The notes under the pieces are model-generated. The model ran no database searches and had not been told where the DNA came from. It worked only from the letters and a program-made list of their open reading frames with translations. Below are positions 8,837-42,430 of a stretch of DNA of 64,000 nucleotides, in pieces. The translations under genes were made by a program, and so were the position numbers. The DNA lies in NCBI RefSeq assembly GCF_013170825.1, contig NZ_CP033365.1, positions 6,336,001 to 6,400,000 on the forward strand. The letters run 5' to 3'. Origin of the DNA: Mesorhizobium sp. NZP2298. GTDB lineage: Bacteria > Pseudomonadota > Alphaproteobacteria > Rhizobiales > Rhizobiaceae. Each line of letters begins with the position of its first letter. Position 1 is the stretch's first letter.

Positions 8837-8844
8837 GGGCTTTC

Positions 8845-22552: not shown

Positions 22553-22698
22553 CCGCGGCGCGCATTCCAAAACCTGCCTGCCTCCAAATCTTTGCTTTAC
22601 ACAAGGCACCAGAGCGATAGCATCGACCTGGCCCTGCCAGCGCCATTGGCCAGACTTGCAGTGGCGTTTGTTCGAACAGTGCGCGAGACAATCCTAGC

Positions 22699-23754: not shown

Positions 23755-24702
23755 ATGTCCGCCGTTGAAAAAGGCCTGGGTGAAGGCAACACCCTCGCCG
23801 AACGCCAACTCGAGGCAGCATTATCCAAGGTCACCACCTGGCAAGGCAAGGCCATTCGCTACCGGCCGATGTTCGGCGGCTTCAGCAACTCCAACTGGCG
23901 TGTCAGCGTGGCCGGCGAACAAGGCTCCTTTTTCGTCAAGTTGCCTGGCCCGGGCACGGAGCGCTTCATCGATCGCGCCGCGTCCCTGGAAGCGGGCCAG
24001 CGAGCCTATCTGCTCGGCATCGGGCCCCGGTGCTTCGACTATCTGAAAGACGAAGGCATAGAAATCTACGATTTCGTCGAGAATTCCCGCACATGCGTCA
24101 CCAGGGATTTTCACACCGCCGGCATCAGGGAGAGCACAATCGCGCTTTACCGCTCATTCAACGACTCCCCCCTTCTCGGTCTCACAAAGACCGTCTTCGA
24201 CATGATCGAGGAACATCTCGAGCAACTGACCGAATTGGGAGGGGAACTGCCCCTCGGCTTTCCTTCGATCCACGCACAGTATCGGGCAGCGCGTGCCGCG
24301 ATCGAAGCCGCAGGGATCGATCTCGTGCCTTGCTACAACGATCCCGCGCCCGCCAACTTCCTGTCAACCAGCGACGGCCGTATCATGATCGTCGATTTCG
24401 AATACGCCTCCAACAACGACCGTTGCTACGATTTGGCAACGTGGTGCGCGGAAATGTTCTTCGATGATTGCATGAACAACGAAGCCATCGAAGTCTATTT
24501 CGGCCGGGTGGAGCCGGCCATTCAGGCGCGCATGTTCGTGTATCGGATGCTTGGCGATTTCAAATGGTCGCTCTGGGCCATGATCCAGATGGCTATCTCC
24601 GACATCGATTTCGATTTCTATAAATTCGGCGCCTGGAAGCGGATGAGACTGCACTCGACGCTGAACGACCGGCGCTGGGACCGATCGCTGGCCTCACTCT
24701 GA
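23755..24702 (+). CDS. Aminoglycoside phosphotransferase/choline kinase-family protein (second of a tandem pair)
   Basis: Protein of 315 aa, LicA/choline-kinase-like. The N-lobe has FGGFSNSNWRVSV and FFVKLPGPGTERFIDR, and the catalytic loop reads PCYNDPAPANFLS where most relatives have HND, so the usual histidine is tyrosine while Asp and Asn are kept. Metal-binding segment IVDFEYASNNDRCYDLA is intact. It starts with ATG directly after the TGA of the first kinase, a sign of coupled expression and possibly a heterodimer. The relation to choline kinases fits an amino-alcohol substrate. Confidence 0.82.
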   Translation: MSAVEKGLGEGNTLAERQLEAALSKVTTWQGKAIRYRPMFGGFSNSNWRVSVAGEQGSFFVKLPGPGTERFIDRAASLEAGQRAYLLGIGPRCFDYLKDEGIEIYDFVENSRTCVTRDFHTAGIRESTIALYRSFNDSPLLGLTKTVFDMIEEHLEQLTELGGELPLGFPSIHAQYRAARAAIEAAGIDLVPCYNDPAPANFLSTSDGRIMIVDFEYASNNDRCYDLATWCAEMFFDDCMNNEAIEVYFGRVEPAIQARMFVYRMLGDFKWSLWAMIQMAISDIDFDFYKFGAWKRMRLHSTLNDRRWDRSLASL

Positions 24703-24824: not shown

Positions 24825-26000
24825 TCACAGTACTTCGAAGAGCCCTGCCGCGCCCATGCCCCCGCCCACGCACATGGTGACAACGATATAACGCACGCCT
24901 CGTCGTTTGCCTTCCAGGAGGGCGTGCCCAACCATTCTTGCTCCCGACATGCCATAGGGATGGCCGATTGAAATCGCGCCGCCATTGACGTTGAGCCGCT
25001 CATCAGGGATCCCCAAACGGTCGCGGCAATACACAACCTGGACGGCGAAGGCCTCGTTGATCTCCCAGATACCAATGTCATCCAGCGAGAGTCCGAAGCG
25101 TTCAAGCAAGCGCGGCACGGCAAAGACCGGGCCAATGCCCATTTCATCCGGCTTGGTGCCGGCCACGGCCATGCCGACATAGCGGCCGAGCGGGCTGAGA
25201 CCGCGTCGCTCCGCGAGGCGCGCTTCCATCACGACGCAGGCCGACGCGCCATCGGAAAGCTGGCTGGCATTCCCGGCCGTGACCGTACCGCCTGGAATAA
25301 CTGCCGCCAGCGCGCTCAGTCCATCGAGTGTGGTTCCGGGCCTTGCTCCCTCGTCGCGATCGAGGACTACTTCGTGGAAGGTGACGTCCTTGGTCGCCTT
25401 GTCGACCCGCTTCATCGTCGCCATCATTGGCACGATCTCGGCATCGAATCGCCCCGCGATCTGAGCTTGCGCGGTGCGTAGTTGCGAACTGAGTGCATAG
25501 GCGTCGCATGTTTCGCGCGTGATGCCATAGCGCCGCGCCACGACTTCGGCAGTCTCCAGCATCGACATATATGCGTCGGGATGCATGGCGGCGAGCATGG
25601 GATCGGGTGTGGTCCGCAGTTCTGGCGTTTGGACCAGCGAGATCGATTCCACTCCGCCGGCGACAACGACATCCATTCGGTCGACGATGATCTGCTTTGC
25701 CGCCGTGGCTATAGTCATGAGCCCGGAAGAACATTGCCGGTCAAGGGTCATCCCCGGCACCGTCACGGGAAAGCCCGCGCGCAATGCCGCCATCCGGCCG
25801 ACTGTCTGCTGTACCCCCTGCGGCAACGAGCAACCGAGCAGGCAATCCTCGATCTCCTCAGGCGCAACGCCGGCGCGTTCGACGGCCGCGGTGAGGGCAT
25901 GCGCCGCAAGCGTCGGCGATGGCGTATGATTCAACGCACCGCGATAGGCGCGACCGATCGGCGTCCGTGCCGTTGCTACGATGACCGCGTCTCGCATCAT
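24825..26000 (-). CDS. Acetyl-CoA C-acyltransferase (thiolase)
   Basis: Cytoplasmic thiolase of 391 aa that would cleave a 3-ketoacyl-CoA to acetyl-CoA and a shortened acyl-CoA. The nucleophilic Cys is in [11 protein letters not shown], the His in [10 protein letters not shown] and [16 protein letters not shown], and the second Cys in [18 protein letters not shown]. The start overlaps the stop of the SDR gene. With the acyl-CoA ligase and dehydrogenase upstream it completes a short beta-oxidation-like route for the product of module C. Confidence 0.93.
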
Positions 26001-26890
26001 TGCCGCACCGCTCCCGCCCGCGCGACCATCTCTGCGCTGGCGAGTTCGCGTTCGGCCTGGGTCAAGCCATATTCAGGGACAATCTCATCCGAGCGCTCGG
26101 ATATGGCTTGCCAGACCTGCATGACGCGTTCGCCCGCGTCGTCGCCCCCGCCGATATAGACGCCTTGGGTGAGTGTTACATTTGCCCGGGCGAAATGACC
26201 TGCGCCGGCACAAAGGATCACCCGGGTGGGAGCGTCCTGACCGACAAGGGCTAGCAGTCCCGGGCTGACCAGTGCCGGATCAAGCAGATCCAGATGCCTT
26301 TCTGGGAGCAGGCCCCCGGTCATCTGTGTCGCGGCTGTCGGAGCCAGGCAGTTGACGCGGATGCCGTATTTGTCGCCCTCGATCGCCAAGGTTTGCATCA
26401 GTCCGACCAGCGCCATCTTGGCCGCACCATAGTTTGCCTGACCGAAGTTGCCGTAGAGCCCGGAGGACGATGTCGTCATCACGATGCGGCCATGGCGCTG
26501 CTCGCGCATGATGTCCCAGACCGCCTTGGTGCAGATCACCGCGCCCATCAGATGAACGTCGAGTACGAGGCGGAAGTCATCGAGGCTCATCTTGGCGAAG
26601 CTCTTGTCGCGCAATATGCCGGCGTTGTTGATCAGGATGTCGACACGGCCCCAGCGCTGCATCGCCTGCACGGTCATGGCAGTTATGGCGGCTTCGTCGG
26701 TCACCGATGCGGCTATGGCGACGGCCTCGTGACCCGCCGCGACAATCTCTGCCGCAACGCGCTCCGCGGCCTCATGCGACAGATCGTTGACGACCACTTT
26801 GGCGCCTTGCCGTGCCAGGTAAAGGGCATGCGCGCGGCCAAGCCCGCCGCCGGCGCCAGTAATGATCGCGATCCTTCCGTTGACAGACAT
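25997..26890 (-). CDS. SDR-family oxidoreductase (3-hydroxyacyl-CoA dehydrogenase-like)
   Basis: Short-chain dehydrogenase of about 297 aa resembling the dehydrogenase part of peroxisomal multifunctional enzyme 2. Cofactor motif [13 protein letters not shown] with NDLSHE for [14 protein letters not shown], catalytic Ser in [21 protein letters not shown] with the YxxxK pair. The C-terminal extension is longer than in FabG. ATG at 26890 is chosen; sequence upstream of it in the same frame is low-complexity and not conserved-looking. It lies between acyl-CoA ligase (73-base gap) and thiolase (overlap). Confidence 0.9.
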
Positions 26891-26963: not shown

Positions 26964-28535
26964 TCAACCGCCACCATATTCGGCGCGCAGCCGGATCTTG
27001 TCGATCTTGCCGGTGGCCGCCAGGGGCATGCGCGGCAGTCGGTAGATCGCATCTGGAACCCACCACGACGCCACATGCCCTTTCAATGAAGCCAGAAGGG
27101 CTTCGTCGCTGATTGCCTGTGCCTCACGTATCTCGACCAGCAGGATCGGTCGCTCACCCCATTTGGGATCGGGCCGTCCAATCACCGCAGCGAGCCCCAC
27201 CTCAGGGAGGGCGCCGATCACCGCCTCGACCTCGGCCGGGTTGATCCATTCGCCGCCGGATTTGATCAGGTCCTTGACCCGGCCCGTAATCGCGACATTG
27301 CCGCTTTCGTCGATGCGCGCGAGATCGCCTGTCGCAAACCAGCCATTCGCATCACTCGCCTTGTCCTGCTCTCCAAAATAACGTTCAACGACGGCGGCAC
27401 CGCGCACGCGCAACTGGCCTTCAACACCACGCTGCCGAGGCAACGCCTGTCCGTCGGCGTCGGTCAGCAATAGATCGACGCCGATAGCGGGGCGACCCGA
27501 GAGCCCCGCTTGCGATCGCTCGTGAAGCGGCGCCACCGTACCCGAGGGCGAGAGCTCGGTCATTCCCCAGCTCGTCTGCACTTTCACATCAAGGCGGCTT
27601 TCGATCCGCTCCATCAGCGCCGGTGCGATCGGGGCCCCTCCAACGGTGATGCGCTTGAGTGTCGGCATGGATATACCGGTCGCTTCGACATGCTCGACAA
27701 GACCCAGCCAGACGGTCGGGACGCCCACTGCCATCGTCACCTCTTCCTCCACAATCAGGCGCGCCAGGCTGGCGCCGTCCATGGCGCGCCCCGGCAGGAC
27801 CAGCCTTGCGCCCACTGCCGGCACCGCAAATGGAAGGCCCCAGGCGTTGGCATGAAACATCGGCACGACGGCAAGAACGCTGTCGGCGCTTGAGATGGCC
27901 ATCACATCGGCCTGCAACAGCCGCAGCGTGTGCAAAAAGCTCGAGCGATGGGTGTAGGTGACCCCCTTGGGGGCACCCGTCGTGCCCGAAGTGAAGCAAA
28001 GTCCGCAAGGAGACGTCTCGTCGAAATCACCCCAGCCTGCCTCGCCCTGCGATCGGGCGATGAGCAGGTCGAGCGAGTAGAGCGGCGGTTCGACGACGCT
28101 TGCCCCGTCGATCACCCAGATTCGCTCGATGTCCGTCGCGGCGGCGACTATCTCGGCGGCAAGCGGCAGGAGATCCGCACTGACGACGAGGATTCGCGCT
28201 TTGGACAAGCCCGCCATGGCAGCGAGTTGCGCGCCGGTCAGCCGCGGGTTGAGTGTATGGCAGACGGCACCCATGCCCATGCAGGCGTACCAGACCTCGA
28301 CATGAGTTTGGGTGTTCCAGGCGAGAGTGGCGATCCGGTCCCCAACACGTATGCCGAAGCTCCGCAGGACCGCCGAGATACGCATGCTGCGATCCCTCAA
28401 TGCGAGGTATCCAATTCGATCGGATTTGCCGTCCGCGCGTCCGGTTACCACCTCCGCTTGAGGATGCCATTTGGCGGCGTGCTCGAGAAACTTCTCGAGC
28501 GTCAAGGCGAAAGGCTGGACAGTGCCGTCCATCAT
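26964..28535 (-). CDS. Acyl-CoA ligase (AMP-forming)
   Basis: Cytoplasmic adenylate-forming enzyme of 523 aa activating a carboxylic acid to its CoA thioester. The P-loop is FTSGTTGAPKGVTYTHRS, core motif WGMTELSPSG, then GWFATGDLARIDESGNVAITGRVKDLIKSGGEWI and the catalytic lysine in PLAATGKIDKIRLR. Most like medium-chain fatty-acid ligases (AlkK type). The ATG pair at 28535/28532 follows GAGG; a long upstream open frame has no relation to the family. A 152-base gap before it carries a TetR-operator-like sequence, so it may have its own promoter. Confidence 0.92.
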   Translation of the reverse strand: MMDGTVQPFALTLEKFLEHAAKWHPQAEVVTGRADGKSDRIGYLALRDRSMRISAVLRSFGIRVGDRIATLAWNTQTHVEVWYACMGMGAVCHTLNPRLTGAQLAAMAGLSKARILVVSADLLPLAAEIVAAATDIERIWVIDGASVVEPPLYSLDLLIARSQGEAGWGDFDETSPCGLCFTSGTTGAPKGVTYTHRSSFLHTLRLLQADVMAISSADSVLAVVPMFHANAWGLPFAVPAVGARLVLPGRAMDGASLARLIVEEEVTMAVGVPTVWLGLVEHVEATGISMPTLKRITVGGAPIAPALMERIESRLDVKVQTSWGMTELSPSGTVAPLHERSQAGLSGRPAIGVDLLLTDADGQALPRQRGVEGQLRVRGAAVVERYFGEQDKASDANGWFATGDLARIDESGNVAITGRVKDLIKSGGEWINPAEVEAVIGALPEVGLAAVIGRPDPKWGERPILLVEIREAQAISDEALLASLKGHVASWWVPDAIYRLPRMPLAATGKIDKIRLRAEYGGG

Positions 28536-28603
28536 GATTGCCTCGCCTGGCGGCCGGCCACGACGATCTGCTTGGGCCTGCGTTCTACACATCCGAGGCC
28601 AAA

Positions 28604-28628
28604 ATTCACTATCGTGCCAGTTAGTAAC
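28604..28628. promoter_or_regulatory. Third TetR-operator-like site, upstream of acyl-CoA ligase
   Basis: AATTCACTATC (28603-28613) is identical over 11 bases to one arm of the site upstream of tetR; the opposite arm TTAGTAAC (28621-28628) is a poorer match and its spacing is four bases longer. It lies 70-90 bases before the ligase ATG. Confidence 0.4.
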
Positions 28629-28687
28629 ATGCATTGACCTGTCAAATGGACGTCCTGCTGTACCGCGTTCACGAGAGCGCGGCAGGT

Positions 28688-30184
28688 TCAGTGAATCGCA
28701 GCATTGAGAATGCTGGCGGCGGTCGCCTCGGCGCGCGAGAATTCGGCGGCAATCGTGCCGCTCTTGGCGACCAGGATCCGGTCGCAGGTCTCCAGAATTT
28801 CCGGCAAATAAGACGATATCAAAATGACGCCGGCACCGCTGTCGGCAAAACTGCGGATGATCTGGCGTATCTCGGCAATTGCTCCGACATCGACGCCGCG
28901 CGTCGGCTCGTCGAAGATGACCAGCCGCGGCTTCTGAATGAGCGACTTGGCTATAACCACCTTCTGCTGGTTGCCGCCGGACAGGTACAGGACCGGTCGT
29001 TCGACGCCGATGCTGCGGATCGACAGCCTGTCCACCCATTCGCGCGCCAGGGCTCGCATCTTTGCGCGTGGTGCGAGCAAGCGACGGCCTCCGAACTTGG
29101 CCAGCCAGCCAAGGCCGATGTTTTCCGCCACACTCAACGTGTCGAAGAAGCCGTCGAGCTTGCGGTCTTCACTGATGTAAGCGATGCCGTCGGCCACCGC
29201 CTGGGCCGGTAGGCCGTAGCGGACCTCGCGGCCGTCGAGCCAGATACGGCCGCCGCCGAAATTGCGCTTTGTGTGTCCCATGATGACCTTGGCGACCTCA
29301 CTCCTGCCCGAGCCGATCAAGCCGGCCAGGCCGGTGATTTCTCCGGGGAAGATCGAGAAGGACATGTTGTTGACCATGCTGCCCATGCGGATGTTTTCCA
29401 CGCGCAGCACCGGCAGGGCGGAGCGCGGCGGGCGCTTGCCCGCTGGGAGCCTGTCCTGCTCGTTCAATTCATCGCCGATCATGTGATGGATCAACGTGTT
29501 GCGATTGAAATTCGCGGCAGGCCCCGTGGTCATCATGCGTCCGTTTCGCAAAACCGAGATTCGATCCGCATAGCTCAGGGCCTCCTCCAGGGCATGCGAT
29601 ATGAAAACAATCGCCACACCGTCTCGCTGAAGCGACTTCATCAGATCGAAGAGATGATCTGTTTCCTCCGGGGTCAGGGCCGCCGTGGGTTCGTCAAGGA
29701 TGATGACCCTCGCCTTGTTCAGCACTGCGCGGGCGATCTCGACCATTTGCCGTTTGGCGGCGGAGAGCGTACCTGCAAGCTGCGCGGGCTCGACCTTGAA
29801 GTTCAGCCGCTGCAGAACTTGCCGGGCAGCACCGCGCACCCGCCGCACCGAGTTGAACATGCGCTCGCGGCCAAGGAAGATGTTCTGGGCGACGGTGAGT
29901 TGCGGCACCAGGCTGGTCTCCTGGTAGACCATTGAAATCCCCTGCCCGCTCGCATCCCTGGGTGAAGAGAAAACCACCGGCTGGCCATCGATCCTGAGAA
30001 TGCCCTCGGATGGCGAGATCACGCCGGCGATCAGCTTGCATAGCGTCGATTTTCCAGCGCCGTTCTCTCCGACCAGGGCGTGGATCTCGCCCGCCATCAA
30101 ATCAAAGCTCGCATCGGCAAGCGCGGCTGTGTTGCCATACGTCTTCGTGACATTCTCGAGGCTGACGATGGGCTGGGCTGTCAT
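28688..30184 (-). CDS. ABC transporter ATP-binding protein, RbsA-like (double domain)
   Basis: Cytoplasmic ATPase of 498 aa with two nucleotide-binding domains for a ribose-type importer. Domain 1: GENGAGKST, LSAAKRQMVEIARAVL, VIILDEPTAALTPEE. Domain 2: Walker A is GLIGSGRSEV, lacking the lysine as is usual for this family, with LSGGNQQKVVIAKSL and LVIFDEPTRGVDVGA. Its ATG overlaps the stop of the propeller protein gene at 30181. It is the last importer gene before the lipid-type enzymes. Confidence 0.93.
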   Translation of the reverse strand: MTAQPIVSLENVTKTYGNTAALADASFDLMAGEIHALVGENGAGKSTLCKLIAGVISPSEGILRIDGQPVVFSSPRDASGQGISMVYQETSLVPQLTVAQNIFLGRERMFNSVRRVRGAARQVLQRLNFKVEPAQLAGTLSAAKRQMVEIARAVLNKARVIILDEPTAALTPEETDHLFDLMKSLQRDGVAIVFISHALEEALSYADRISVLRNGRMMTTGPAANFNRNTLIHHMIGDELNEQDRLPAGKRPPRSALPVLRVENIRMGSMVNNMSFSIFPGEITGLAGLIGSGRSEVAKVIMGHTKRNFGGGRIWLDGREVRYGLPAQAVADGIAYISEDRKLDGFFDTLSVAENIGLGWLAKFGGRRLLAPRAKMRALAREWVDRLSIRSIGVERPVLYLSGGNQQKVVIAKSLIQKPRLVIFDEPTRGVDVGAIAEIRQIIRSFADSGAGVILISSYLPEILETCDRILVAKSGTIAAEFSRAEATAASILNAAIH

Positions 30185-31221
30185 GGCACGCTCCCAGAAC
30201 CGAGGTTGAGGATTTCGCTGCTAGCCCGGCTGACGGCAATCAGGTCCCCGTTCCACGAACAGACATCGCAGATCGCATGGCGCCTTCCGTTGGCGCGCGA
30301 ATGCGCGCAGGCGATCGGCATCAGGGCCTCGTCCAGTTCGATCAGCAGCCCATATGAAAATGAAGGCGCCCAGGGTTTTACATCACCGAAGAGCCGAGCC
30401 GCCCCCAGTTCGATTGGGAAGTCGTGGCTGATTTCCGGCGTGGCACGCGGCGAGATCCAGTAGCGCGGATCAAGATTGGTCTTCATATCCGAAACGAACA
30501 CCGGCTCCGTCTTCAGGAATTCGATCAAGGGATCGCGCCTCGACAGGCAGGCCATCGCGTATCCGGTGCCGGTCTTGCGGATGCGTCCGAGATAGCCGGG
30601 ATAGCCAGACTGGAGAGTGCGGCCTGAAAGATCGACGATGCAGGCACGGTCGAGTTGGGAGATGATGAGACCGCCGGCGAAGTCTGGGGTGATGCCCATC
30701 GGGCAATGCAATGCTCGCGCAACGATGCGCGGCTCCTTGAAGCGGCCCACCACCACCACCTTCCCGCGAGGCACTTCATCCCATGGCGCGATGGACAACA
30801 CGTTTTGATCGTCGCGGTAGCCATTGTCGACGACAGCGATCTCGTCGCTGGACAGGAAGGCGCAATCGCTCACAGAGACGAGATCTGGCGGCGTGGACCA
30901 GCCGTCGACCGCCTGCCCGCTCTGGTCGATGACCGCGATGGAACCACCTTGCAGACCGACCGCCACAAGGCCGTCGGCGCTGCACGACAGGGCGGACACG
31001 GGTTGGTCGAACCGCGCCCAGGCTTCCGGTGCTTCGCGCCATCGGTGCAGGCGGAATATCTGGCCGCCGGAACTGAACAGCAGGTGGCCTTCGGCTGATA
31101 CGGATAATGCTTCCGGCTTCTTCACAGGGATGGCCTCCGCGTCGTCCAGCCGGTTGTTGGGGCCAAGGACCCCTTCCAGCGTCATTCCGGGAGTCTCCTT
31201 GGCCTTGCGTGCGAAGAGCAT
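30181..31221 (-). CDS. Beta-propeller protein, SMP-30/strictosidine-synthase-like
   Basis: Protein of 346 aa without signal peptide or membrane helix. Repeated beta-strand turns (EALSVSAEGHLLFSSGG, ALSCSADGLVAVGLQGG, DCAFLSSDEIAVVDNGYR, PMGITPDFAGGLIISQLD) suggest a six-bladed propeller of the gluconolactonase/strictosidine synthase superfamily, but catalytic metal ligands cannot be assigned with confidence. The ATG at 31221 overlaps the stop of the fusion permease (TGATG) with GGAGGG upstream. Being encoded between two importer genes suggests a cytoplasmic lactonase or sugar-lactone-binding partner. It could also be non-enzymatic. Confidence 0.7.
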   Translation of the reverse strand: MLFARKAKETPGMTLEGVLGPNNRLDDAEAIPVKKPEALSVSAEGHLLFSSGGQIFRLHRWREAPEAWARFDQPVSALSCSADGLVAVGLQGGSIAVIDQSGQAVDGWSTPPDLVSVSDCAFLSSDEIAVVDNGYRDDQNVLSIAPWDEVPRGKVVVVGRFKEPRIVARALHCPMGITPDFAGGLIISQLDRACIVDLSGRTLQSGYPGYLGRIRKTGTGYAMACLSRRDPLIEFLKTEPVFVSDMKTNLDPRYWISPRATPEISHDFPIELGAARLFGDVKPWAPSFSYGLLIELDEALMPIACAHSRANGRRHAICDVCSWNGDLIAVSRASSEILNLGSGSVP

Positions 31222-33356
31222 CAGCGGTCCCTCCCCCAATAGCTCGCAGGCCCGGTCCACCGTGCGTTGGCGCCTTCTAGGGCGAGCCGACCGATCTTGT
31301 CGTTGGTCACACCGCCGAGGAACAGCGAGCCTTCGTGCTCACGCATCGATGTGATCATGTAGAGAGGTCCATCGGGAGCATCCCACAGTGCATCCACTAT
31401 CTTGCCAAGCCCGTCTATCTTGAGCACGCCTCCGATATTGAGGTTGCCGAAGAGCCAGTTTGTCGGTGGCACGCGCCTTGTCATGCGCCGTCGCAGGCCC
31501 GGGTGTTTCAGCACCCGGTCGAAGAGCGGATTGCGCATCCCGGCCAGCGCCACCCAGTAGCCGCCATCCGACGCCCGGTTGATGTTGTCGGGATAACCCG
31601 GCAGACCTTTGAGGAAGATGCGTGGCCCATCCGACAACTTGGCGAGATCGAAGATCAGGATCGAGCAGTTCCACGTACTGGCGACCAGCAGGTGCTTGCC
31701 GTCATGTGTCAGGCACACACCGTTTGGAAACACCAGATTGTCGCAGATGGTCCGGGTTTTCCCGGATTTCGGGTCATGACTGAGGAGACGGCCGTTGGGC
31801 CGCCCTTCAAGAAGGTCCATTCCCCAGTTTTCAATGTCGTAGCGCTTCGTTGCGTCTGTGAAATAGATCGTGCCATCGGGCCCTATGTCCAGGTCGTCGG
31901 CCATACGGATTGCGGTGTCGTCCTGGACACTGAAGAGGCTGCGTGACGTCTCGTCCGTCAACAGTTCGACGTGGCCTGCCATGGTGACGCGGATCAGCCC
32001 CATTCCGGCAACGCAGGTGACGATCCGCCCTTCACGGTCAAAGGCCAGCCCAAGTGGGCGCCCACCGATCTTGGCCAGCACGCTTACATCCGAATAGGTC
32101 GGCGCGGCGATTTTCAGGATGCAGCCATTGCGGTTGCCGCAGTAGAGGTTGCCTTCAGCGTCGAGAATAACATCCTCGGGTCCGTCAACGCGCCCGGACG
32201 CCAGGATTTTCGCGCCCTTCAGCCGCGGAACTGTCTCATCCGGCATCAATCCGCGCATGCCCTCGACGGGCCCGGCATCGAGCACGATGGGATCGAGGTA
32301 GCTTGAGGCCAGCAAGCGGTGCCGGTTCTTGCGGAATCGGACATCGATCGTCAGGATCACGATGATGATGGCGCCCATGCAGAACTGGACGAAGTCGCCA
32401 CGGAAGCCTGCATTGATCATGGCGTTGTTCAGGAGGTAGATCGTCGTGAAGCCGATGAGCACGGTCACGGGCGAACCCTTGCCGGGAACGAAGCCGCCAA
32501 GGCCGACCACGAGGGCCGTCAGCGCGAAAAACTCCATGCCGATGCCGGTGTCGGCGACGCTGATGCTGTTTTGACGTGCCGCAAACAGAAAGCCGGCCAG
32601 ACCGACGATAAGTCCCGCCAACAGGTAGGCCAGGAAAATGGTCGTCCTGACAGGGATGCCGCCATGGCGCGCCGCCTTGCGATTCCCGCCGACCGCGAGG
32701 ATATGCCAGCCGAAGCGAAGCTGGCGAAACATAACGAACACCAGCGCCGCCACGGCGATCAGGCACCAGGCTCCGATTGGGACGGCCAGGAACTTCTCGA
32801 AGCCAATCCAGTCCCAAAGGTCATCGGTGCGGCTGCTCGTCGATATTTCCACGAGTTCAGCCTGAGCGGCGAGCGCAAACAATGCCCTGACGGTGATCAT
32901 GGTCCCGAGCGTCGTCAACAACGCGCCACAGCCGAGCAGGCCGGCGACGATGCCATTCGTCATGCCGACCGCGGCGCCGGCCGCAAGCGTGAGCACCAAC
33001 ACGGCAGGAACCGGCAGGTTGAGAATGTGAAAGCAATAGAGCGCGACGAAGGCCGACATGGCGAAGTTCGAGCCGACCGAGAGATCGATGCCGCCAACCG
33101 CGACGACAATCAGAAGCGCCAGGACGACGAGCCCGCCATCGGCGGCGTATTGCGCGAGATTCTGCAGGTTGGCCGGCGAGAAATAGCCGTCCGTCGTCAG
33201 TGCGATGCCGATCAGCACGCACAGCAGGGCCAGGAACGGAATTGTGCTCTCGATCCATCCCTTGGCGAGGATGTCCGCCAGAATGCGCCGCGGCGACACC
33301 ACGAACAGGGGTACGTGTTGCCTTGGCAGGCTGGCGAAGTCGATTTCAGCGGGCAT
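31221..33356 (-). CDS. Fusion: RbsC-like ABC permease + strictosidine-synthase/SMP-30-like propeller
   Basis: Single chain of 711 aa. Residues about 35-335 form an RbsC-like permease: multiple helices, GGIDLSVGSNFAMSAF, GGNRKAARHGGIPV, and ALVVGLGGFVPGKGSPVTVL. From about 375 the protein is a soluble propeller with strictosidine-synthase/APMAP-like motifs: GPEDVILDAEGNLYCG, DDLDIGPDGTIYFTDATKRYD, GRLLSHDPKSGKT, LVFPNGVCLTHDGKHLLVAS and GYPDNINRASDGGYWVALAG. No stop or frameshift separates the halves. If topology follows other permeases of this class, the propeller faces the cytoplasm at the pore exit, where it could hydrolyse a lactone or ester as it enters. Confidence 0.88.
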   Translation of the reverse strand: MPAEIDFASLPRQHVPLFVVSPRRILADILAKGWIESTIPFLALLCVLIGIALTTDGYFSPANLQNLAQYAADGGLVVLALLIVVAVGGIDLSVGSNFAMSAFVALYCFHILNLPVPAVLVLTLAAGAAVGMTNGIVAGLLGCGALLTTLGTMITVRALFALAAQAELVEISTSSRTDDLWDWIGFEKFLAVPIGAWCLIAVAALVFVMFRQLRFGWHILAVGGNRKAARHGGIPVRTTIFLAYLLAGLIVGLAGFLFAARQNSISVADTGIGMEFFALTALVVGLGGFVPGKGSPVTVLIGFTTIYLLNNAMINAGFRGDFVQFCMGAIIIVILTIDVRFRKNRHRLLASSYLDPIVLDAGPVEGMRGLMPDETVPRLKGAKILASGRVDGPEDVILDAEGNLYCGNRNGCILKIAAPTYSDVSVLAKIGGRPLGLAFDREGRIVTCVAGMGLIRVTMAGHVELLTDETSRSLFSVQDDTAIRMADDLDIGPDGTIYFTDATKRYDIENWGMDLLEGRPNGRLLSHDPKSGKTRTICDNLVFPNGVCLTHDGKHLLVASTWNCSILIFDLAKLSDGPRIFLKGLPGYPDNINRASDGGYWVALAGMRNPLFDRVLKHPGLRRRMTRRVPPTNWLFGNLNIGGVLKIDGLGKIVDALWDAPDGPLYMITSMREHEGSLFLGGVTNDKIGRLALEGANARWTGPASYWGRDR

Positions 33357-33380
33357 GGCGCGTTCCAGGCGATGGAAAAG

Positions 33381-33400
33381 GCGGGGCTGGAGAGCCCCGC
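33381..33400. repeat. Hairpin behind the ribose-type binding-protein gene
   Basis: Perfect 8-bp stem GCGGGGCT/AGCCCCGC with GGAG loop, between the binding-protein stop (33432) and the fusion permease ATG (33356). No U-run follows. Likely an mRNA stabiliser or attenuator favouring binding-protein expression. Confidence 0.65.
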
Positions 33401-33431
33401 GGAGTCCGTTATGTCAGCGACTGGCCGTCGC

Positions 33432-34421
33432 TCACATTTTCCAGCACAGGCTGGCATCGTATGTGGGGCCCCCCTTGATGATCTTGAGGGGTGAATCCAC
33501 CGTCAGCATGGACCCGTCCGCGGCGGTGGCTCCCTGCAGCAGCAGGTCGATCACCGTGGCCGCATCGCGGCCTTGCCCATCGGCGTCGTAGCTCCACACC
33601 CGGTCGAGAATCTTGTCCTCCACCGCCTTGCAGGTGACGTTGTCGCCACCGCCCGTTGCGTAGACCAGCACCTTGTCCTCAAGCCCAGCGTCCTTGACGG
33701 CATGGCCGGCGCCCATCGTATGAACATCCCAGTGGCCGAAGATGGCGCAGAGGTCCGGATGCTGTTGCAGCACGGTTGCCGTGATCTGGCGCGCCTTCTC
33801 TGGCTCCCAGTCGGACGCCTGGTTGGAGACAACCTGGATCTCGGGGTGATCCTTGAACACCTTGAAGGCCGCATCATTCATCATGACGCTGTCGGCCGCG
33901 GTCAACTGGCCGGGGATGATGGCCACCTTGCCCGACTTGCCGCTGCCTGCGCCGCACTCCTTGACGATGTCCTCCGCGACGTCGTGGCCAATGCGGGTCC
34001 AGTTGGCGCCGACGAATGCGGAAGACGGCTGGTTGGACTGCAGGTTGAGCTGCAGGACCTTGATGCCCGCGGCCTCGGCCTGCTTGATCTGGCGGGCCAG
34101 CAACTGAACCGTCGGATTGTGAACGACCAGAACATCAGGCTTTTCACTGATCGCCTTGGCCAGAAGTTCGGCCATTGCGCCGCTGTTGAAGGCGGGATCG
34201 CGGATCTCGAGGGTGTAGCCATGCAACGCCGCGTCCTCCTTCATGCGGCGCGCCCACCCTTCGGTCAGCGAAATACCCATGGCGATCGGTATGAAGATCA
34301 CCTTCTTGCCGGCGAGGTCGGTGCCCGCCGAGGTCGATCCGGTTGAACCCATCGCCGCGGTCGCCGCGATCAGAAAAGCCATAGCTGCGGTTCGAACGCG
34401 ATTTCCAATTCTATAGACCAT
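33432..34421 (-). CDS. Periplasmic substrate-binding protein, RbsB-like
   Basis: Type I periplasmic binding protein of 329 aa. Sec signal (about residues 10-30, TAAMAFLIAATAAMGS), first-lobe segment KVIFIPIAMGISLTEGWARRMKEDA, then VLVVHNPTVQLLARQIKQAEAAGIKVLQLN and IFGHWDVHTMGAGHAVKDAG in the second lobe. Thirty bases downstream of the 335-aa permease gene. It feeds the two RbsC-like permeases of module C; sugar, cyclitol or lactone ligands are all possible. Confidence 0.92.
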   Translation of the reverse strand: MVYRIGNRVRTAAMAFLIAATAAMGSTGSTSAGTDLAGKKVIFIPIAMGISLTEGWARRMKEDAALHGYTLEIRDPAFNSGAMAELLAKAISEKPDVLVVHNPTVQLLARQIKQAEAAGIKVLQLNLQSNQPSSAFVGANWTRIGHDVAEDIVKECGAGSGKSGKVAIIPGQLTAADSVMMNDAAFKVFKDHPEIQVVSNQASDWEPEKARQITATVLQQHPDLCAIFGHWDVHTMGAGHAVKDAGLEDKVLVYATGGGDNVTCKAVEDKILDRVWSYDADGQGRDAATVIDLLLQGATAADGSMLTVDSPLKIIKGGPTYDASLCWKM

Positions 34422-34450
34422 GTTCTCCTCCTTTGTTTGATTATCAGTCT

Positions 34451-35458
34451 CTAAAGATCGCCAACGGTGTCCGTTTCGGTGTCCCTGGGGTTCAGATAAT
34501 TGTCGATGACGATCGCAAGGATCAGGACCAGCCCCCTCAGGGCATCCTGCATCTGCGTGGTGAAGTTCATGAGCGTCATCCCATTGCGCAGTATGGCGAT
34601 GAGCGCCGCCCCGACCAGGATGTTCCTGAGGCCGCCACGGCCGCCCCGAAGCGGTATGCCTCCGAGGACCACGACGAGGATCACATCAAACAGCAGCGTC
34701 CCGTTCGAAACAGTCCGGAAGTCAACCGCACCGCTGGCCGCCGAGGTGACAAGACCGGCCAGAAGTGCGGTGACCGCGGCATAGACGTACACCACCACGG
34801 TGGTCGTTCTCACCGGCAGGCCGGTCAGGCGGGCAGCCTGATAATTGTCGCCCATGGCATAGATGATGCGCCCGGCGGTCGAATAGCTCAGCAGCAGCCA
34901 GGTCGCAAAAAGGGTGGCAACCATGAGCGCGACCGGAACCGTCACGCCGGGCAGGATGTTTGCCGACAGGAACATTACCGCAGGATTCGATTTCGGCAGC
35001 AGCAGGATGAATTCGCCACGCAGTATCGCGAACCGAAACAGGCCGGTGATGAACATGGCCGACGCCAAAGTGGCCAGCATCGCAGGAATGCCCACATAGG
35101 CGATTAGAAAGGCGTTCACGAATCCGACCAGGACCATGGCGGCGACCGCCACCAGCAATGCCAGCGAGGCCGGGCTGCCGCCGGTAACCAGGATGCTGAA
35201 AATGGTTGCCCCCGCCACCATCTGGGCGATCAGGGACAGATCCAAGCCCCTCGATATGATCACGACGGCCATGCCGCAGCTCAGCATGACAAGGGAAGTG
35301 GAATTGGACAGGATGACCAGCAGGTTTCCGGAAGTCGCAAATCCATCGATGAAGAGAGCGAACAAGACCGCCAGGGCAAAGGTCACGACGAGCACGACGC
35401 GCTCGAGCATGCCGACCTCACGCCTGCCCGTCATTTTCCCCAGCACGGTCTCAGTCAT
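34451..35458 (-). CDS. ABC transporter permease, RbsC-like
   Basis: Inner-membrane permease of 335 aa, first structural importer gene of module C. Family motifs SRGLDLSLIAQMVAGATIF, GDNYQAARLTGLPVRTT and VNGTLLFDVILVVVLGG-like segments are present; it should pair with the permease half of the downstream fusion. The ATG overlaps the stop of a 54-codon leader frame (ATGA), so its translation may depend on that leader. Confidence 0.92.
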   Translation of the reverse strand: MTETVLGKMTGRREVGMLERVVLVVTFALAVLFALFIDGFATSGNLLVILSNSTSLVMLSCGMAVVIISRGLDLSLIAQMVAGATIFSILVTGGSPASLALLVAVAAMVLVGFVNAFLIAYVGIPAMLATLASAMFITGLFRFAILRGEFILLLPKSNPAVMFLSANILPGVTVPVALMVATLFATWLLLSYSTAGRIIYAMGDNYQAARLTGLPVRTTTVVVYVYAAVTALLAGLVTSAASGAVDFRTVSNGTLLFDVILVVVLGGIPLRGGRGGLRNILVGAALIAILRNGMTLMNFTTQMQDALRGLVLILAIVIDNYLNPRDTETDTVGDL

Positions 35459-35619
35459 GGCAGGCGCCGTCCGAGCCGATCGTATCGACGGCTTCGCGCG
35501 CGCCGGCCGGCCATCGGAAGGCTCCTCGACGGCCTTTCAAGCGAGACCCAACGGTTGCGTGGGGGTGCATCGCGCAGCCCACCACCGGTCAAGCCCGCAA
35601 TCCCTGCCTTGCGTTGCAT
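35455..35619 (-). CDS. Possible 54-aa leader peptide with strong ribosome site
   Basis: ATG at 35619 is preceded by GGGAGGAGAGGAC, the strongest Shine-Dalgarno in this module. The frame runs 54 codons (begins MQRKAGIAGLTGGG, then arginine-rich) and its TGA overlaps the permease ATG. The peptide matches no family I know and is basic enough to be a chance frame. A leader that loads ribosomes onto the permease message, or a decayed N-terminal gene fragment, are the two readings. Confidence 0.35.
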   Translation of the reverse strand: MQRKAGIAGLTGGGLRDAPPRNRWVSLERPSRSLPMAGRRARSRRYDRLGRRLP

Positions 35620-35931
35620 GTCCTCTCCTCCCGGGCGAAGCTGTAGCAAGAATTACATTCACTAACAAGATAGCGAATGTTATTTGACGCAAGAATGATC
35701 CGCCTGCCGGCAACGCAGGCGTCGGACGGCCTCGACCGGCCGCCCGCCAGGCGGCCATGGCGATTTTCAGGATGATCTCAAGGTGAGAAGTCGGCCGCCG
35801 GCAGCATATCGCTTGGGATCGGGTTCCCGACAGGAACTTGACCGGAGATGGCGGTCACGGACACCGGTCTTGGTCCGGGATTTTGCCGAGACTGCGCCCG
35901 CCAGAGTGGCTTCGTACGAGGCAATGGCGGG
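35620..35931. other. Gap between tetR stop and importer leader
   Basis: About 310 bases holding the importer promoter region and the operator-like site at 35655-35680. No gene is supported in it. A possible minus-strand promoter is TTGTTA overlapping the operator followed after 17 bp by TACAGC, which is weak. Confidence 0.4.
35655..35680. promoter_or_regulatory. TetR-operator-like site upstream of module C importer
   Basis: Inverted repeat with arms ACATTC/GAATGT, extended inwards by CTA/TAG, over 26 bases. Its core matches the site at 36795-36814 at most positions (TTCACT..C.AGATAG.GAAT). It sits just upstream of the leader frame and permease gene. Confidence 0.65.
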
Positions 35932-36651
35932 TCAGATCTTGCGCGTCGCCCCGAGCCTGTCGCCCACTGCCTCCCGCTTCACGCAGATGGACCGGATGCC
36001 CGCCGCCATGAACGTCGCCATTCGTTCCTTTACCGCCATGAAGTCGTCCGACCGGCACAGTCCGCCCGACAGCTTGTCGATGCGGCCGGTTCGAGCGAGC
36101 GTGAGCATCAGTGCCCCGGTGACGAAATGATATCCCCAGAAAATGTCTTCTTCAGCGCATCCAGGAAGCGCTTTCTTGAGAAGATCAACCAGTCGCAACA
36201 CGACGGGATCGAAGTGCTTGTCCATCAGTTCCGCGCCCCATTGCGGTGTATTCGCCACCTGGGCACCCAAGGCAGCGTAATTCTTCCAGCCCTCGTCACC
36301 TTCGATGTAGAGGTCGAGATCGGTGTCGAGAAATGCGCGTAGCGCGCCCTCTACCGTGGGCTTGCCTTTCATGGCCTGGTCGTAATCGGCAAGCGCCTTC
36401 ATCCGCCGATCGCTGGTGACCGCAGCCCTGCGCGCAAAGACAGCATCAAAGAGCATCTTCTTGTCGGTGAAGTAGTAATTGATCAGCGTGTGGTGCACAC
36501 CGACGGCTCGAGCGACGTCCTTCAGTGCGACTCCATGCAGTCCATGCTTTGAGAAGAGGAATTCGGCGGTGTCGAGAATCTGCTCGATCGTCTCGGCTCG
36601 TTGCTCTGCTTTCGTGGCACGCTTGCGCCTTACGCCGCTCTCCTGAGACAA
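35932..36651 (-). CDS. TetR-family transcriptional regulator
   Basis: Regulator of 239 aa with an N-terminal TetR DNA-binding domain (ETIEQILDTAEFLFSKHGLHGVALKDVARAVGVHHTLINYYFTDKKML, residues 20-66) and a ligand-binding C-terminal domain similar to FadR/CerR-like relatives. Starts with TTG preceded by AAAGGG. Near-identical palindromes lie upstream of it (36795), before the importer (35655) and, less well preserved, before the acyl-CoA ligase (28604). This supports autoregulation and control of module C, with an acyl-CoA or lactone as possible inducer. Confidence 0.9.
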   Translation of the reverse strand: MSQESGVRRKRATKAEQRAETIEQILDTAEFLFSKHGLHGVALKDVARAVGVHHTLINYYFTDKKMLFDAVFARRAAVTSDRRMKALADYDQAMKGKPTVEGALRAFLDTDLDLYIEGDEGWKNYAALGAQVANTPQWGAELMDKHFDPVVLRLVDLLKKALPGCAEEDIFWGYHFVTGALMLTLARTGRIDKLSGGLCRSDDFMAVKERMATFMAAGIRSICVKREAVGDRLGATRKI

Positions 36652-36736
36652 GCTGATACCCTTTCCAATTCACCGTCGAACGCCAGCGCATCCATTTTCG
36701 CGCGCTGTGAAGCGAGCTTTGGCAATTCGACGCATT

Positions 36737-36763
36737 CCAAGTCAATCCGGCCAAGTCAATCCG
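36737..36763. repeat. Tandem repeat CCAAGTCAATCCG x2 upstream of tetR
   Basis: Two exact 13-base copies at 36737-36749 and 36751-36763, a 14-base period. They lie about 90 bases before the tetR start and could be a protein-binding site or a simple duplication. Confidence 0.55.
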
Positions 36764-36794
36764 AGAATCAATCAATGTGACACGCGAGTCAATC

Positions 36795-36814
36795 TTCACT
36801 CGCCAGATAGTGAA
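36795..36814. promoter_or_regulatory. TetR-operator-like site upstream of tetR
   Basis: Inverted repeat TTCACT/AGTGAA with an 8-base centre. The sequence around it agrees with the site at 35655-35680, including the asymmetric AGATAG centre. It is 144 bases before the tetR start, as expected for an autoregulatory operator with a long leader. Confidence 0.6.
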
Positions 36815-38566: not shown

Positions 38567-39670
38567 TCAGTTGGATGCGACGGCGACGGATGCCGTCCTG
38601 TTCGCCGGCACGTCATTATCGGCAAGAAAGCCGATGCTGGAGGGCAGCACGCTGCAGGGGACCCTGTCGCCGGCAGCGATGCCGCGCGCCGTCGCCGAGG
38701 ATGCCAGGAGCAGGAGTTCCTGGCCGTCCGGGGTGGACACGGTCATGCGCTCGGACGAGCCGACGAAGGAGACGTCGGCGACAATGGCGGGAAAGGCGAT
38801 GGCCCCGGGGGACGGCTCGCCGATGGCGATGTCCTCCGGACGCATCCAGACCGTCAGCGCCGATCGGCCATGCCGCGACGCGTCGTAGCCATCGGGCATC
38901 GGCGCCCGGCTTCCGAACAGCTCGATGCCGCCATCGACGGCGCGCGCCGAAACGATGTTGTTGCCGCCGAGGAAGCCCGCGACGAAGCGCGAGGCGGGCG
39001 CGCGGTATATGTCGCGCGGGGTGCCGACCTGAACGATCGCGCCATTGTGGAAGACGGCTATGCGGTCCGACATGGCGTAGGCTTCCTCCTGGTCATGGGT
39101 AACATAGACGAAGGTCACACCGGTCTGCCGATGCAGCCGTTTGAGTTCGCGTTGCATGGTGTCGCGCAGCGTACGGTCGAGCGCCGACAGCGGTTCGTCG
39201 AGCAGCAGTATCTTCGGCCCGAAGGCCAGCGCGCGGCCGATCGCCACGCGCTGCTGCTGACCGCCCGACAATTCACGCGGCTTGCGCGCGGCCAACCTGT
39301 CCAGGCCGACGAGATTGAGAATCTCTTCCACCCTCGCGGCGATCCTGGCCTTGTCCCATTTGCGGACCCTCAAGGGGAAGGCGATGTTGTCCGCGGCGTT
39401 CAGGTGGGGAAACAACGCATAGCCCTGGAAGACCAGTCCGAAATTCCTGTCCTCCGGGTCGACGCGCGTGATGTCGACGCCATCCAGCAGGATGGCGCCG
39501 TCGTCCGGCTTGGTGAACCCGGCGACCGACATTAGCAGCGTCGTCTTGCCAGACCCCGAAGGGCCGAGCAAGGTTACGAACTCCCCCGCCTCGATCGACA
39601 GGTCGATGCCGTCGAGCGCGACGGCCGACCCGTAGGTCTTGCGGAGGTTTCGGACGTCGAGAAAGGACAT
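38567..39670 (-). CDS. ABC transporter ATP-binding protein, PotA-like
   Basis: Cytoplasmic ATPase of 367 aa for the module D importer. Walker A GPSGSGKTT, signature ELSGGQQQRVAIGRAL, Walker B ILLLDEPLSALD and H-loop VYVTHDQEEAYAMSDR are intact; the C-terminal TOBE region (about 285-350) includes VWMRPEDIAIGEP. Its ATG directly follows the TGA of the deiminase-fold gene. Such ATPases serve spermidine/putrescine-type importers. Confidence 0.94.
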   Translation of the reverse strand: MSFLDVRNLRKTYGSAVALDGIDLSIEAGEFVTLLGPSGSGKTTLLMSVAGFTKPDDGAILLDGVDITRVDPEDRNFGLVFQGYALFPHLNAADNIAFPLRVRKWDKARIAARVEEILNLVGLDRLAARKPRELSGGQQQRVAIGRALAFGPKILLLDEPLSALDRTLRDTMQRELKRLHRQTGVTFVYVTHDQEEAYAMSDRIAVFHNGAIVQVGTPRDIYRAPASRFVAGFLGGNNIVSARAVDGGIELFGSRAPMPDGYDASRHGRSALTVWMRPEDIAIGEPSPGAIAFPAIVADVSFVGSSERMTVSTPDGQELLLLASSATARGIAAGDRVPCSVLPSSIGFLADNDVPANRTASVAVASN

Positions 39671-40690
39671 TCAGATCGGATCCCGGGCGAGCGGACCCGT
39701 CGAGCAATGAATGCCGCCCCCGTTCAGTTCGATGCATTCATAGTCCAGCGTCAGGATCTCGATGCCGGCGGCGTCGAGCCGGTCGGCCAGGCGCGGCGTG
39801 CGGGTGGCGTGCATGACGACCCGACCCGGTGCGATCGCCAGGCAGTTGAGCGAGAAGGCGTTGTCCTCCGGCGGAAGTTCGATCAGCTTCATGCCGCGCT
39901 TGTTCAGATAGTCGATGAAGACATAGGGCAGTTCGTTGATGTTGATGATCGCCGTCTCCTTGTCGATCATCATGAAGCTGCCGTCGATGTGGATGCGATA
40001 GCCGGGCATCGGCACCTTGATCAGTTCGACGCCCAGGCTGTTGAGGATCATCTCGACCTGCCGCACGCCCTCGGCGTTGCAGGCGACGGAGACCGAGCAG
40101 ACGGCGGTCTTGTCGTCGAGGAGCGCGAACCCGCCGCCTTCGAACACCGCTTCGCCATGCAGCGTGCCGAGGATCGGGCAACCGGCCTTGGCGAGCGCCT
40201 GGGTGACCATCAGTTCCTCGCCGCGGCGCGCCCGGCGGGCAAGGCGGGTGACGATCGCGCCGCCCTTCACGCCGATGACGCTGTCGCGGCAGAAGGTCGA
40301 CTTGAGAGCGCCGGGGGCTGCCTTCTCGGTAAGGATGACGTCGACGCCCTCCGAGCGCAACAGCTTGGTGAAGCTATCGTGCGCTGCCTGCATGGCGGCG
40401 AGATCCGGCGGCGTCTTGCCCATGAAGTACCAGCCTTTTTCCGGATCGCCGAAACCGCCGATCTCGGGCATGGGCTTGTTCTTGTCGACGACATTGATCT
40501 CCTCGCCAGGCCGGTGCATCAGCACGGCGCGCAGCTTGCCGACATCATTGGTGCAACCCCAGGGCCGGCCCCAGACGCGGGTCTGCTCTTGCGGGTCATG
40601 GAAAGCCGGCGTCGGGACGGAGCCGAAGGTCTGAAAGAACTTGGCCTCCCGGTATTCGTGCTCGCTCATTGCGGCGCTGTGGGCAGTCAT
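39671..40690 (-). CDS. Amidinotransferase/arginine deiminase-fold enzyme
   Basis: Cytoplasmic enzyme of 339 aa in the guanidino-group-modifying superfamily. The N-terminal segment AVLMHRPGEEI, the FCRDS motif (133-137), Glu 184 in VFEGGG, His 234 in YRIHIDGS and the catalytic Cys 329 in GGGIHCSTGP match the Glu-His-Cys set of deiminases and amidinotransferases. Its length fits neither classical ArcA (about 400) nor dimethylarginine hydrolase (about 260-280). AAAGGA precedes the ATG. Being inside a polyamine-type importer operon, it probably attacks an imported guanidino compound; transferase versus hydrolase activity cannot be told. Confidence 0.88.
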   Translation of the reverse strand: MTAHSAAMSEHEYREAKFFQTFGSVPTPAFHDPQEQTRVWGRPWGCTNDVGKLRAVLMHRPGEEINVVDKNKPMPEIGGFGDPEKGWYFMGKTPPDLAAMQAAHDSFTKLLRSEGVDVILTEKAAPGALKSTFCRDSVIGVKGGAIVTRLARRARRGEELMVTQALAKAGCPILGTLHGEAVFEGGGFALLDDKTAVCSVSVACNAEGVRQVEMILNSLGVELIKVPMPGYRIHIDGSFMMIDKETAIININELPYVFIDYLNKRGMKLIELPPEDNAFSLNCLAIAPGRVVMHATRTPRLADRLDAAGIEILTLDYECIELNGGGIHCSTGPLARDPI

Positions 40691-40736
40691 GTCTTCGATT
40701 TCCTTTCTGAAACAAGCGAAGCGATTGAAGGTCGTG

Positions 40737-42382: not shown

Positions 42383-42392
42383 GGTCTTTCGA

Positions 42393-42421
42393 ACCACCAC
42401 CGGCCGATGGCCGGTGGTGGT
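42393..42421. repeat. Perfect 13-bp hairpin behind the module D binding-protein gene
   Basis: ACCACCACCGGCC/GGCCGGTGGTGGT with a 3-nt loop, the strongest stem in the window. It fills the gap between the binding-protein stop (42431) and permease ATG (42382) and may occlude the permease ribosome site as well as protect the upstream message. Confidence 0.75.
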
Positions 42422-42430
42422 CTCCAATGG

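Follow-up and report, generated by a model that had tools for sequence, protein, structure and literature searches.

A ribose-type importer and a set of coenzyme A (CoA)-dependent enzymes, encoded in a 64,000-nt stretch of the Mesorhizobium sp. NZP2298 chromosome (bases 6336001-6400000; hereafter, the window), very probably form a single TetR regulon, as comparison with related loci indicates. The genes follow one another on the minus strand in the order tetR, permease 1, binding protein, permease 2-propeller, second propeller, ATPase, acyl-CoA ligase, SDR dehydrogenase and thiolase (Table 1). We favor, by a modest measure, a reading in which one repressor would govern the uptake of a 3-hydroxy-acid lactone, its hydrolysis and a beta-oxidation-like cleavage of the product. 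The most interesting part of the cluster is the fusion of a permease to a putative lactonase, accompanied by a degenerate partner; it was overlooked by the original prediction, which had been made from the DNA letters of the window.

Operators and their conservation

The original prediction started from two near-identical palindromes beside tetR. Both are real, and each departs at one position from TTCACTA-N6-TAGTGAA. A search for the palindrome elsewhere in the genome had been suggested; at up to one mismatch, operators A and B are the sole matches in the whole 7,336,816-base chromosome. The window thus holds two such matches, and none of 100 dinucleotide shuffles gives any. Because the pattern was derived from the sites themselves, conservation in relatives provides the independent test. 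The three nearest loci, all of Mesorhizobium type (L018, L019 and L020), have a site at each of three positions: upstream of tetR, in the tetR-importer gap and ahead of the ligase. L020 has one more, ahead of its SDR gene. The block of site A is identical in the window and in these three loci, and the DNA upstream of the block is poorly conserved; downstream, some sequence is conserved too, including a stretch that resembles a ribosome-binding site. At 35617-35619 and downstream, on the minus strand, this stretch and an ATG just after operator A begin a short frame that is out of frame with permease 1 and whose alignment with the relatives falls out of register after a few codons; a leader peptide is possible.

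An 11-base arm, AATTCACTATC, had been noted before the acyl-CoA ligase and is indeed present at 28603-28613. Eight of 100 shuffles hold two copies of it at up to one mismatch, a count for which we dropped the arm as stand-alone evidence. Operator C gains its credibility from the relatives, since L018, L019 and L020 also carry a site before the ligase (two mismatches in L018 and L019, three in L020). Across the window and these loci the site C block is identical in 18 of 20 columns, little over the local median of 16 of 20.

A TetR orthologue (76-96% identity) is found in 11 of the 32 importer loci that we retrieved. TTCACT/AGTGAA pairs with a spacing of 4, 8 or 12 bases and up to one mismatch occur 19 times in the 240 kb of these 11 loci versus three times in the 407 kb of the 21 loci that lack TetR; at other spacings, the same half-site pairs number two versus none. 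Ten of the 19 matches come from the close relatives L018-L020, and the other nine represent seven separate places, nested half-sites being counted repeatedly. With operators conserved and enriched in TetR-bearing loci, and with a linkage that is kept through rearrangement, the proposal of one regulon stands. In the distant loci L022, L026, L027, L032, L033, L040, L046 and L047, half-sites lie 4, 8 or 12 bases apart and CACT/AGTG steps recur, as would suit a regulator able to bind in alternative registers. Hoeflea marina (L046) has sites at CoA-enzyme genes and none of them at the importer, so that TetR may control the importer in only part of the group.

Linkage to CoA enzymes and a cleavage enzyme

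Ligase and thiolase accompany the importer in 12 of the 32 loci, a beta-keto-acid cleavage enzyme in 10, and either in 18. The 12 ligase-thiolase loci display at least five gene arrangements: importer-ligase-SDR-thiolase, importer-thiolase-ligase-SDR, ligase-thiolase-TetR-SDR-importer, ligase-thiolase-TetR-importer-SDR, and a divergent one. All 10 cleavage-enzyme loci also encode a PucR-type regulator, which coincides with TetR in L046 only. Cleavage of a free acid with acetyl-CoA and CoA activation followed by thiolysis both act on a beta-keto acid, and the compound taken up therefore most likely gives rise to a 3-hydroxy acid. We scanned the cleavage enzymes of eight of the 10 loci (L023 and L030 were left out), and five of the eight pass the cut-off of NF053538, the model for 3,5-dioxohexanoate:acetyl-CoA acetone transferase. 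The NZP2298 genome itself contains seven BKACE-family matches elsewhere. In Hoeflea alexandrii (L031, 14653-16637), the SDR gene is adjoined by a carboxylesterase gene and by sequences that match a thiolase at its two ends only; a decayed thiolase is found here beside a kept cleavage enzyme.

The permease-propeller fusion and its degenerate partner

Two propeller proteins had been predicted. Two propellers do exist, but one of them is a domain fused to permease 2 and only the other is a separate protein, so that the idea of two free-standing propellers was rejected on the Pfam result. At least 2012 proteins, out of 7996 scored candidates, match the 711-residue fusion at E 1e-20, and all of the best 120 of these 2012, in which we read the architecture, combine BPD_transp_2 with SSL_N, Str_synth and SGL. 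The nearest named match is from M. qingshengii (94%). In the AlphaFold model (pLDDT 82, pTM 0.65), a helical membrane part is followed by a C-terminal propeller. Ten likely membrane helices and the charges of the loops, both judged with hand-set limits, place this propeller probably in the cytoplasm.

Pfam, AlphaFold and Foldseek agree on the propeller fold of the PON/SMP-30 superfamily. Foldseek matches include TGW6, strictosidine synthases, DFPase and the propeller lactonase RPA3624, and profile comparison yields a weak match to Drp35 (E 5e-4). Residues E394, D395, D488, N545, D590 and N591 are invariant in 37 of 37 aligned fusions, five paralogues at 42-43% identity included, and D487 is kept in 36. 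When mapped to PON1 by motif, E394, D487/D488, N545, D590 and N591 fall on calcium-ligand positions, with Asp where PON1 has Asn; we take the PON1 counterparts to be E53/D54, N168/D169, N224 and D269/N270. These features suggest that the fused propeller probably hydrolyses lactones.

The second propeller has no Pfam match. In a one-profile comparison, almost the entire protein aligns with the fused propeller (E 6e-34). Its structure model (pLDDT 86) resembles the same folds, among them PON1 and Drp35. Three ligand positions are lost: Met, Gly and Arg stand at the positions of N545, D590 and N591. Among 30 second-propeller sequences, the N545 position is Asn once, the E394 position is Glu in 12 and Asp in nine, and the D488 position is Asp in 21. 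The protein looks like a conserved non-catalytic partner. Arginine at the N591 position (R226) is kept in 29 of the 30 sequences; it replaces a calcium-ligand asparagine and could bind a carboxylate.

The five-gene importer and its paralogues

All five importer genes are present, at least in part, in 30 of the 32 loci; the contig begins inside the substrate-binding protein (SBP) gene in L042 and L044, and the ATPase gene runs off the contig in L045. In L033 (Rhizobium sp. G21, 7935-8905), permease 1 matches fall in two overlapping frames, the gene being frameshifted in the record by sequencing error or decay. The same five-gene order is annotated in the nine plasmid regions that we opened, of 15 matches (Paraburkholderia, Pantoea, two of Shinella, Sulfitobacter, Paracoccus, Celeribacter, Salipiger and Rhizobium). 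Where the contig allows, the set is intact in 32 loci, nine plasmid regions and 12 paralogue loci, and it is found in alpha-, beta- and gammaproteobacteria. Neighbors in the plasmid regions vary, from CoA-transferases with a MaoC dehydratase, or an AMP-binding protein with an acyl-CoA dehydrogenase and a phosphotransferase, to 3-oxoacyl-ACP-reductase-type dehydrogenases and to triose-phosphate-isomerase-family and dihydroxyacetone-kinase-family genes. This variety suggests that one transporter design serves several small-molecule substrates. On a Sulfitobacter alexandrii plasmid (L068), a paralogous fusion importer lies by genes for phosphotransferase, acyl-CoA dehydrogenase and AMP-binding proteins, a set reminiscent of 4-hydroxy-acid (gamma-lactone) catabolism.

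Three further fusion importers (L050, L051 and L052) are encoded in the NZP2298 genome. L051 (G000:C1:7135000-7154000) has the five-gene fusion importer directly between a degradative hydroxymethylglutaryl-CoA (HMG-CoA) reductase (TIGR00532, 437 bits versus a cut-off of 260) and an HMG-CoA lyase (PRK05692, 381 versus 246), and has the look of a complete mevalonate catabolic operon. The same operon is present on a Shinella plasmid, one of the nine regions opened, where the enzyme is annotated 'hydroxymethylglutaryl-CoA reductase, degradative'. HMG-CoA reductase was found in 10 of 101 genomes, seven of them of the same genus; six of these seven reductases are located 2.3-4.4 kb from a fusion importer and the seventh at a contig end, pointing to mevalonate as the substrate of the L051-type paralogue. 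Mevalonate forms a 3-hydroxy-delta-lactone, which fits a lactonase domain. L050 is flanked by genes for an aromatic amino acid lyase, an MFS transporter and a metallophosphoesterase, and L052 by those for a LysR regulator, an isocitrate/isopropylmalate-type dehydrogenase and an FAD oxidoreductase. Right beside its window-type cluster, L020 has an L051-type importer (propeller 92% identical) with an HMG-CoA-lyase relative. Beside theirs, L024 and L034 have an importer that is closer to the L051 type (63-64%), together with a different ligase and an enoyl-CoA hydratase.

Neither a permease-propeller fusion nor a natural bacterial mevalonate importer is described among the literature matches listed, whose scope leaves out subscription journals and lower-ranked papers. 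One of these matches (PMC12405511) concerns a yeast transporter evolved for mevalonate uptake.

Gene content and surroundings of the cluster

Pfam and NCBIfam confirmed the families assigned by the original prediction, namely TetR, RbsABC-type importer, AMP-forming ligase, SDR and thiolase (Table 1). NF053516 is the only NCBIfam match of TetR at E 1e-15, and its score led us to reject membership in the PsrA equivalog. A Peripla_BP_4 binding protein, BPD_transp_2 permeases and a double ABC_tran ATPase identify an importer of the RbsABC type; among models for specific sugars, those listed for its SBP, permease 2 and ATPase all score below cut-off, so that we do not class it as a ribose importer. 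Genes overlap by TGATG at the boundary of fusion and second propeller, and by 4 bases each at those of propeller and ATPase and of SDR and thiolase. The open reading frame of the second propeller opens at 31260, and its likely start is the ATG that overlaps the stop codon of the fusion.

Table 1. Genes of the cluster and candidate operators in the window
Feature	Position	Strand	Location or basis
tetR: TetR regulator, TetR_C_30 domain, PsrA-like	35932..36651	-	Pfam; NCBIfam NF053516, 69.8 bits vs cut-off 300
Importer permease 1 (BPD_transp_2)	34451..35458	-	Pfam
Sugar-type substrate-binding protein (Peripla_BP_4)	33432..34421	-	Pfam; N-terminus signal-peptide-like, read by eye
Importer permease 2 with C-terminal strictosidine-synthase-like/paraoxonase-type propeller (~residues 346-711)	31221..33356	-	Pfam, homologues, structure model
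Degenerate partner propeller	30181..31221	-	No Pfam match; profile match to fused propeller; same fold
RbsA-type double ATPase	28688..30184	-	Pfam, NCBIfam
AMP-forming acyl-CoA ligase	26964..28535	-	Pfam; nearest NCBIfam models PRK06018, PRK07008, below cut-off
SDR dehydrogenase, probably 3-hydroxyacyl(-CoA) type	25997..26890	-	Pfam
Thiolase (acetyl-CoA C-acyltransferase)	24825..26000	-	Pfam; TIGR01930 over cut-off; PRK07108 580 vs cut-off 615
Operator A	35658..35677	.	Between tetR and importer; TTCACTAACAAGATAGCGAA, 1 mismatch to TTCACTA-N6-TAGTGAA
Operator B	36795..36814	.	Upstream of tetR; TTCACTCGCCAGATAGTGAA, 1 mismatch to TTCACTA-N6-TAGTGAA
Operator C (degenerate)	28605..28624	.	Upstream of ligase; 3 mismatches to TTCACTA-N6-TAGTGAA

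The thiolase end of the cluster adjoins, on the plus strand at 21788-24702, a gene for a DeoR-family regulator followed by two APH/choline-kinase-like genes. Upstream of tetR, at 38567-42427, an ABC transporter (an ATPase with a TOBE domain and two permeases) and an arginine-deiminase/DDAH-like gene are encoded.

Proposed mechanism and alternatives

We infer DNA binding, lactonase activity, substrate class and trapping from sequence. TetR, which by family resemblance would sense an acyl-CoA or an acid, is proposed to bind the palindromes before its own gene, the importer and the ligase. When the ligand appears, the RbsABC-type importer would be made; its cargo would be a small 3-hydroxy acid whose circulating form is the lactone. 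The cytoplasmic propeller on permease 2 probably hydrolyses the entering lactone and thereby traps the hydroxy acid, and the degenerate propeller probably docks on the fused one as its non-catalytic partner. The ligase would then form the CoA ester, the SDR enzyme oxidise the 3-hydroxyl, and the thiolase release acetyl-CoA and a shortened acyl-CoA. As a class, the substrate is likely, with some reservation, a 3-hydroxy lactone; a mevalonolactone-like 3-hydroxy-delta-lactone or a 3,5-dihydroxy acid is the most likely type, perhaps a C6 compound of the 3,5-dihydroxyhexanoate type. Thiolysis to a 3-hydroxybutyryl-type CoA would need neither glycerate kinase nor CoA-transferase, and a C6 3,5-dihydroxy acid is weakly preferred for that reason. 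The original prediction had a sugar-like or lactone compound imported, opened, activated and shortened. Its lactone half is supported by the calcium-ligand-type propeller, the mevalonate-type paralogues and the cleavage enzyme of the relatives; a plain sugar importer was rejected, as the specific sugar models listed are below cut-off.

More tentatively, the fusions may constitute a broad ABC importer family with import-coupled hydrolysis, in which a cytoplasmic calcium lactonase on permease 2 would have its own pseudo-lactonase, with a conserved arginine at a calcium-ligand position, as a cap or gate. Lactones would be opened at once and trapped as anions, with paralogues for mevalonolactone, for the 3-hydroxy lactone of the window and for other small lactones. 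If true, this would be a hydrolytic counterpart of group translocation: transporter and first catabolic enzyme would be one polypeptide, an unusual route to irreversible uptake, and soil and marine bacteria would possess uptake systems for mevalonate or mevalonolactone and similar lactones. Through the repressor and its operators, the question of the substrate can be tested directly, as the expected inducer is the substrate itself or the CoA ester made from it.

Several observations weigh against a lactone regulon. Half-site pairs with exactly two mismatches are only slightly enriched in TetR-bearing over TetR-lacking loci (27 versus 17 at spacings of 4, 8 or 12; 19 versus 23 at other spacings). 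Site C is weak in the window, being one of 31 genome sites with three mismatches, and at the 3-mismatch level the whole genome holds no excess (33 matches in all versus 68 for a reversed control pattern). Fourteen of the 32 importer loci have neither ligase and thiolase nor the cleavage enzyme nearby. The cleavage enzymes below the NF053538 cut-off (L021, L031 and L046, with slightly trimmed frames) include both that were scanned from ligase-thiolase loci, and the cluster of the window has no cleavage enzyme, which makes this clue indirect. For the fusion, the model gives no confident placement of the two domains relative to each other (pTM 0.65), the profile matches PON1 without significance (E 0.27), and fold and ligands suit strictosidine-synthase-like proteins and DFPase as well. 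The scanned neighbors of L050 and L052 include no HMG-CoA reductase or lyase, and the fetched stretches of three HMG-CoA reductase loci in other families contain no fusion importer. Just six of 58 fusion matches in genus relatives are near HMG-CoA reductase, so mevalonate can serve one paralogue group only.

Some of these points bear on specific alternatives. It is rather unlikely that the fused propeller is no lactonase and instead senses or gates, or acts as an esterase or arylesterase, in which case the substrate need not be a lactone. In fold it comes nearest to TGW6 and plant strictosidine synthases, the sequence of the partner propeller suggests a non-catalytic protein, and a carboxylesterase gene stands beside the cluster in L022 and L031; against this, calcium-ligand-type positions are kept throughout the aligned fusions, the five paralogues included (D487 with one exception), there are the weak profile match to Drp35 and the Foldseek match to the propeller lactonase RPA3624, and some paralogues have mevalonate-type neighbors. 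We also hold it unlikely that TetR governs itself and one flank only, importer or CoA enzymes, with the other part co-located and separately regulated. The weakness of site C would fit such an arrangement, as would L046, whose sites stand at CoA-enzyme genes and where cleavage enzyme and importer adjoin the PucR-type regulator. The Mesorhizobium-type loci, however, hold strong sites before the importer together with the kept site before the ligase.

The substrate could alternatively be 2-deoxyribonate or its lactone, with the cluster as an ABC-transporter variant of the acyl-CoA route that Klebsiella uses for deoxyribonate. The Klebsiella enzyme set is very similar, the P. simiae combination of SDR, cleavage enzyme and lactonase parallels the cleavage-enzyme form of the cluster, and deoxyribonate and mevalonate share a 3,5-dihydroxypentanoate frame. 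However, tblastn searches of the 32 loci with the own-genome MOFRL-type glycerate kinase and three PF01144 frames (E 1e-10) gave no match, a result limited to these queries, as no search was made for glycerate kinase of the GarK type or for further CoA-transferase families; in the own genome, these kinase and CoA-transferase genes lie more than 1 Mb away. Cleavage enzymes of the relatives pass a model for 3,5-dioxohexanoate, although a deoxyribonate enzyme might pass it as well. Deoxyribonate, set aside as first-choice substrate because the queries used found no linked kinase or transferase, appears quite improbable. Least credible, and very improbable, is an ordinary ribose-type sugar importer that has unrelated fatty-acid-type genes as chance neighbors. 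SBP, permease 2 and ATPase do match sugar-importer models, if below the cut-off of each specific one, but the linkage survives at least five gene arrangements and the five-gene set stays intact across loci, plasmids and paralogues.

Comparison with known systems

The original prediction knew of no characterised pathway with this gene set, a statement that does not hold: deoxyribonate catabolism in Klebsiella michiganensis uses a very similar set of enzymes (Price et al. 2019, PMC6365646). Its acyl-CoA pathway comprises CoA-synthetase, beta-hydroxyacyl-CoA dehydrogenase, thiolase and a lactonase homologue, and the cluster also has MFS transporters, a CoA-transferase and a glycerate kinase (PMC6365646). 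As in the window, ligase, hydroxyacyl dehydrogenase, thiolase, a lactonase-type protein and transport genes occur together, a likeness by family only. In contrast to Klebsiella, with its MFS transporter pair, separate lactonase, CoA-transferase and glycerate kinase, the window has an ABC importer with a fused propeller and TetR operators. The Pseudomonas simiae deoxyribonate pathway, described in the same paper as an SDR, a beta-keto-acid cleavage enzyme and a lactonase (PMC6365646), resembles the cleavage-enzyme form of the cluster (L025, L029, L038 and L048); it differs in MFS transport and a GntR-like regulator, where that form has the ABC fusion importer and a PucR-type regulator. In phloroglucinol degradation, the triacetate:acetoacetate-lyase step combines a dehydrogenase with BKACE-family cleavage of 3,5-dioxohexanoate, the substrate also named in NF053538; that pathway is anaerobic and includes a reductase and a cyclohydrolase (PMC10470551).

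TetR of the window has the TetR_C_30 sensor domain in common with PsrA-type regulators and scores far below the cut-off of the PsrA model. With the paraoxonase/SMP-30/strictosidine-synthase-like propellers Drp35, RPA3624, PON1 and TGW6, the fusion shares the fold and the calcium-ligand positions; unlike them, its propeller is tethered to an ABC permease and probably cytoplasmic. The importer has the binding protein, two permease genes and double ATPase of RbsABC-type sugar importers, but its permease 2 has a catalytic-type propeller at the C-terminal end, and in the loci read a gene for a partner propeller goes with it.

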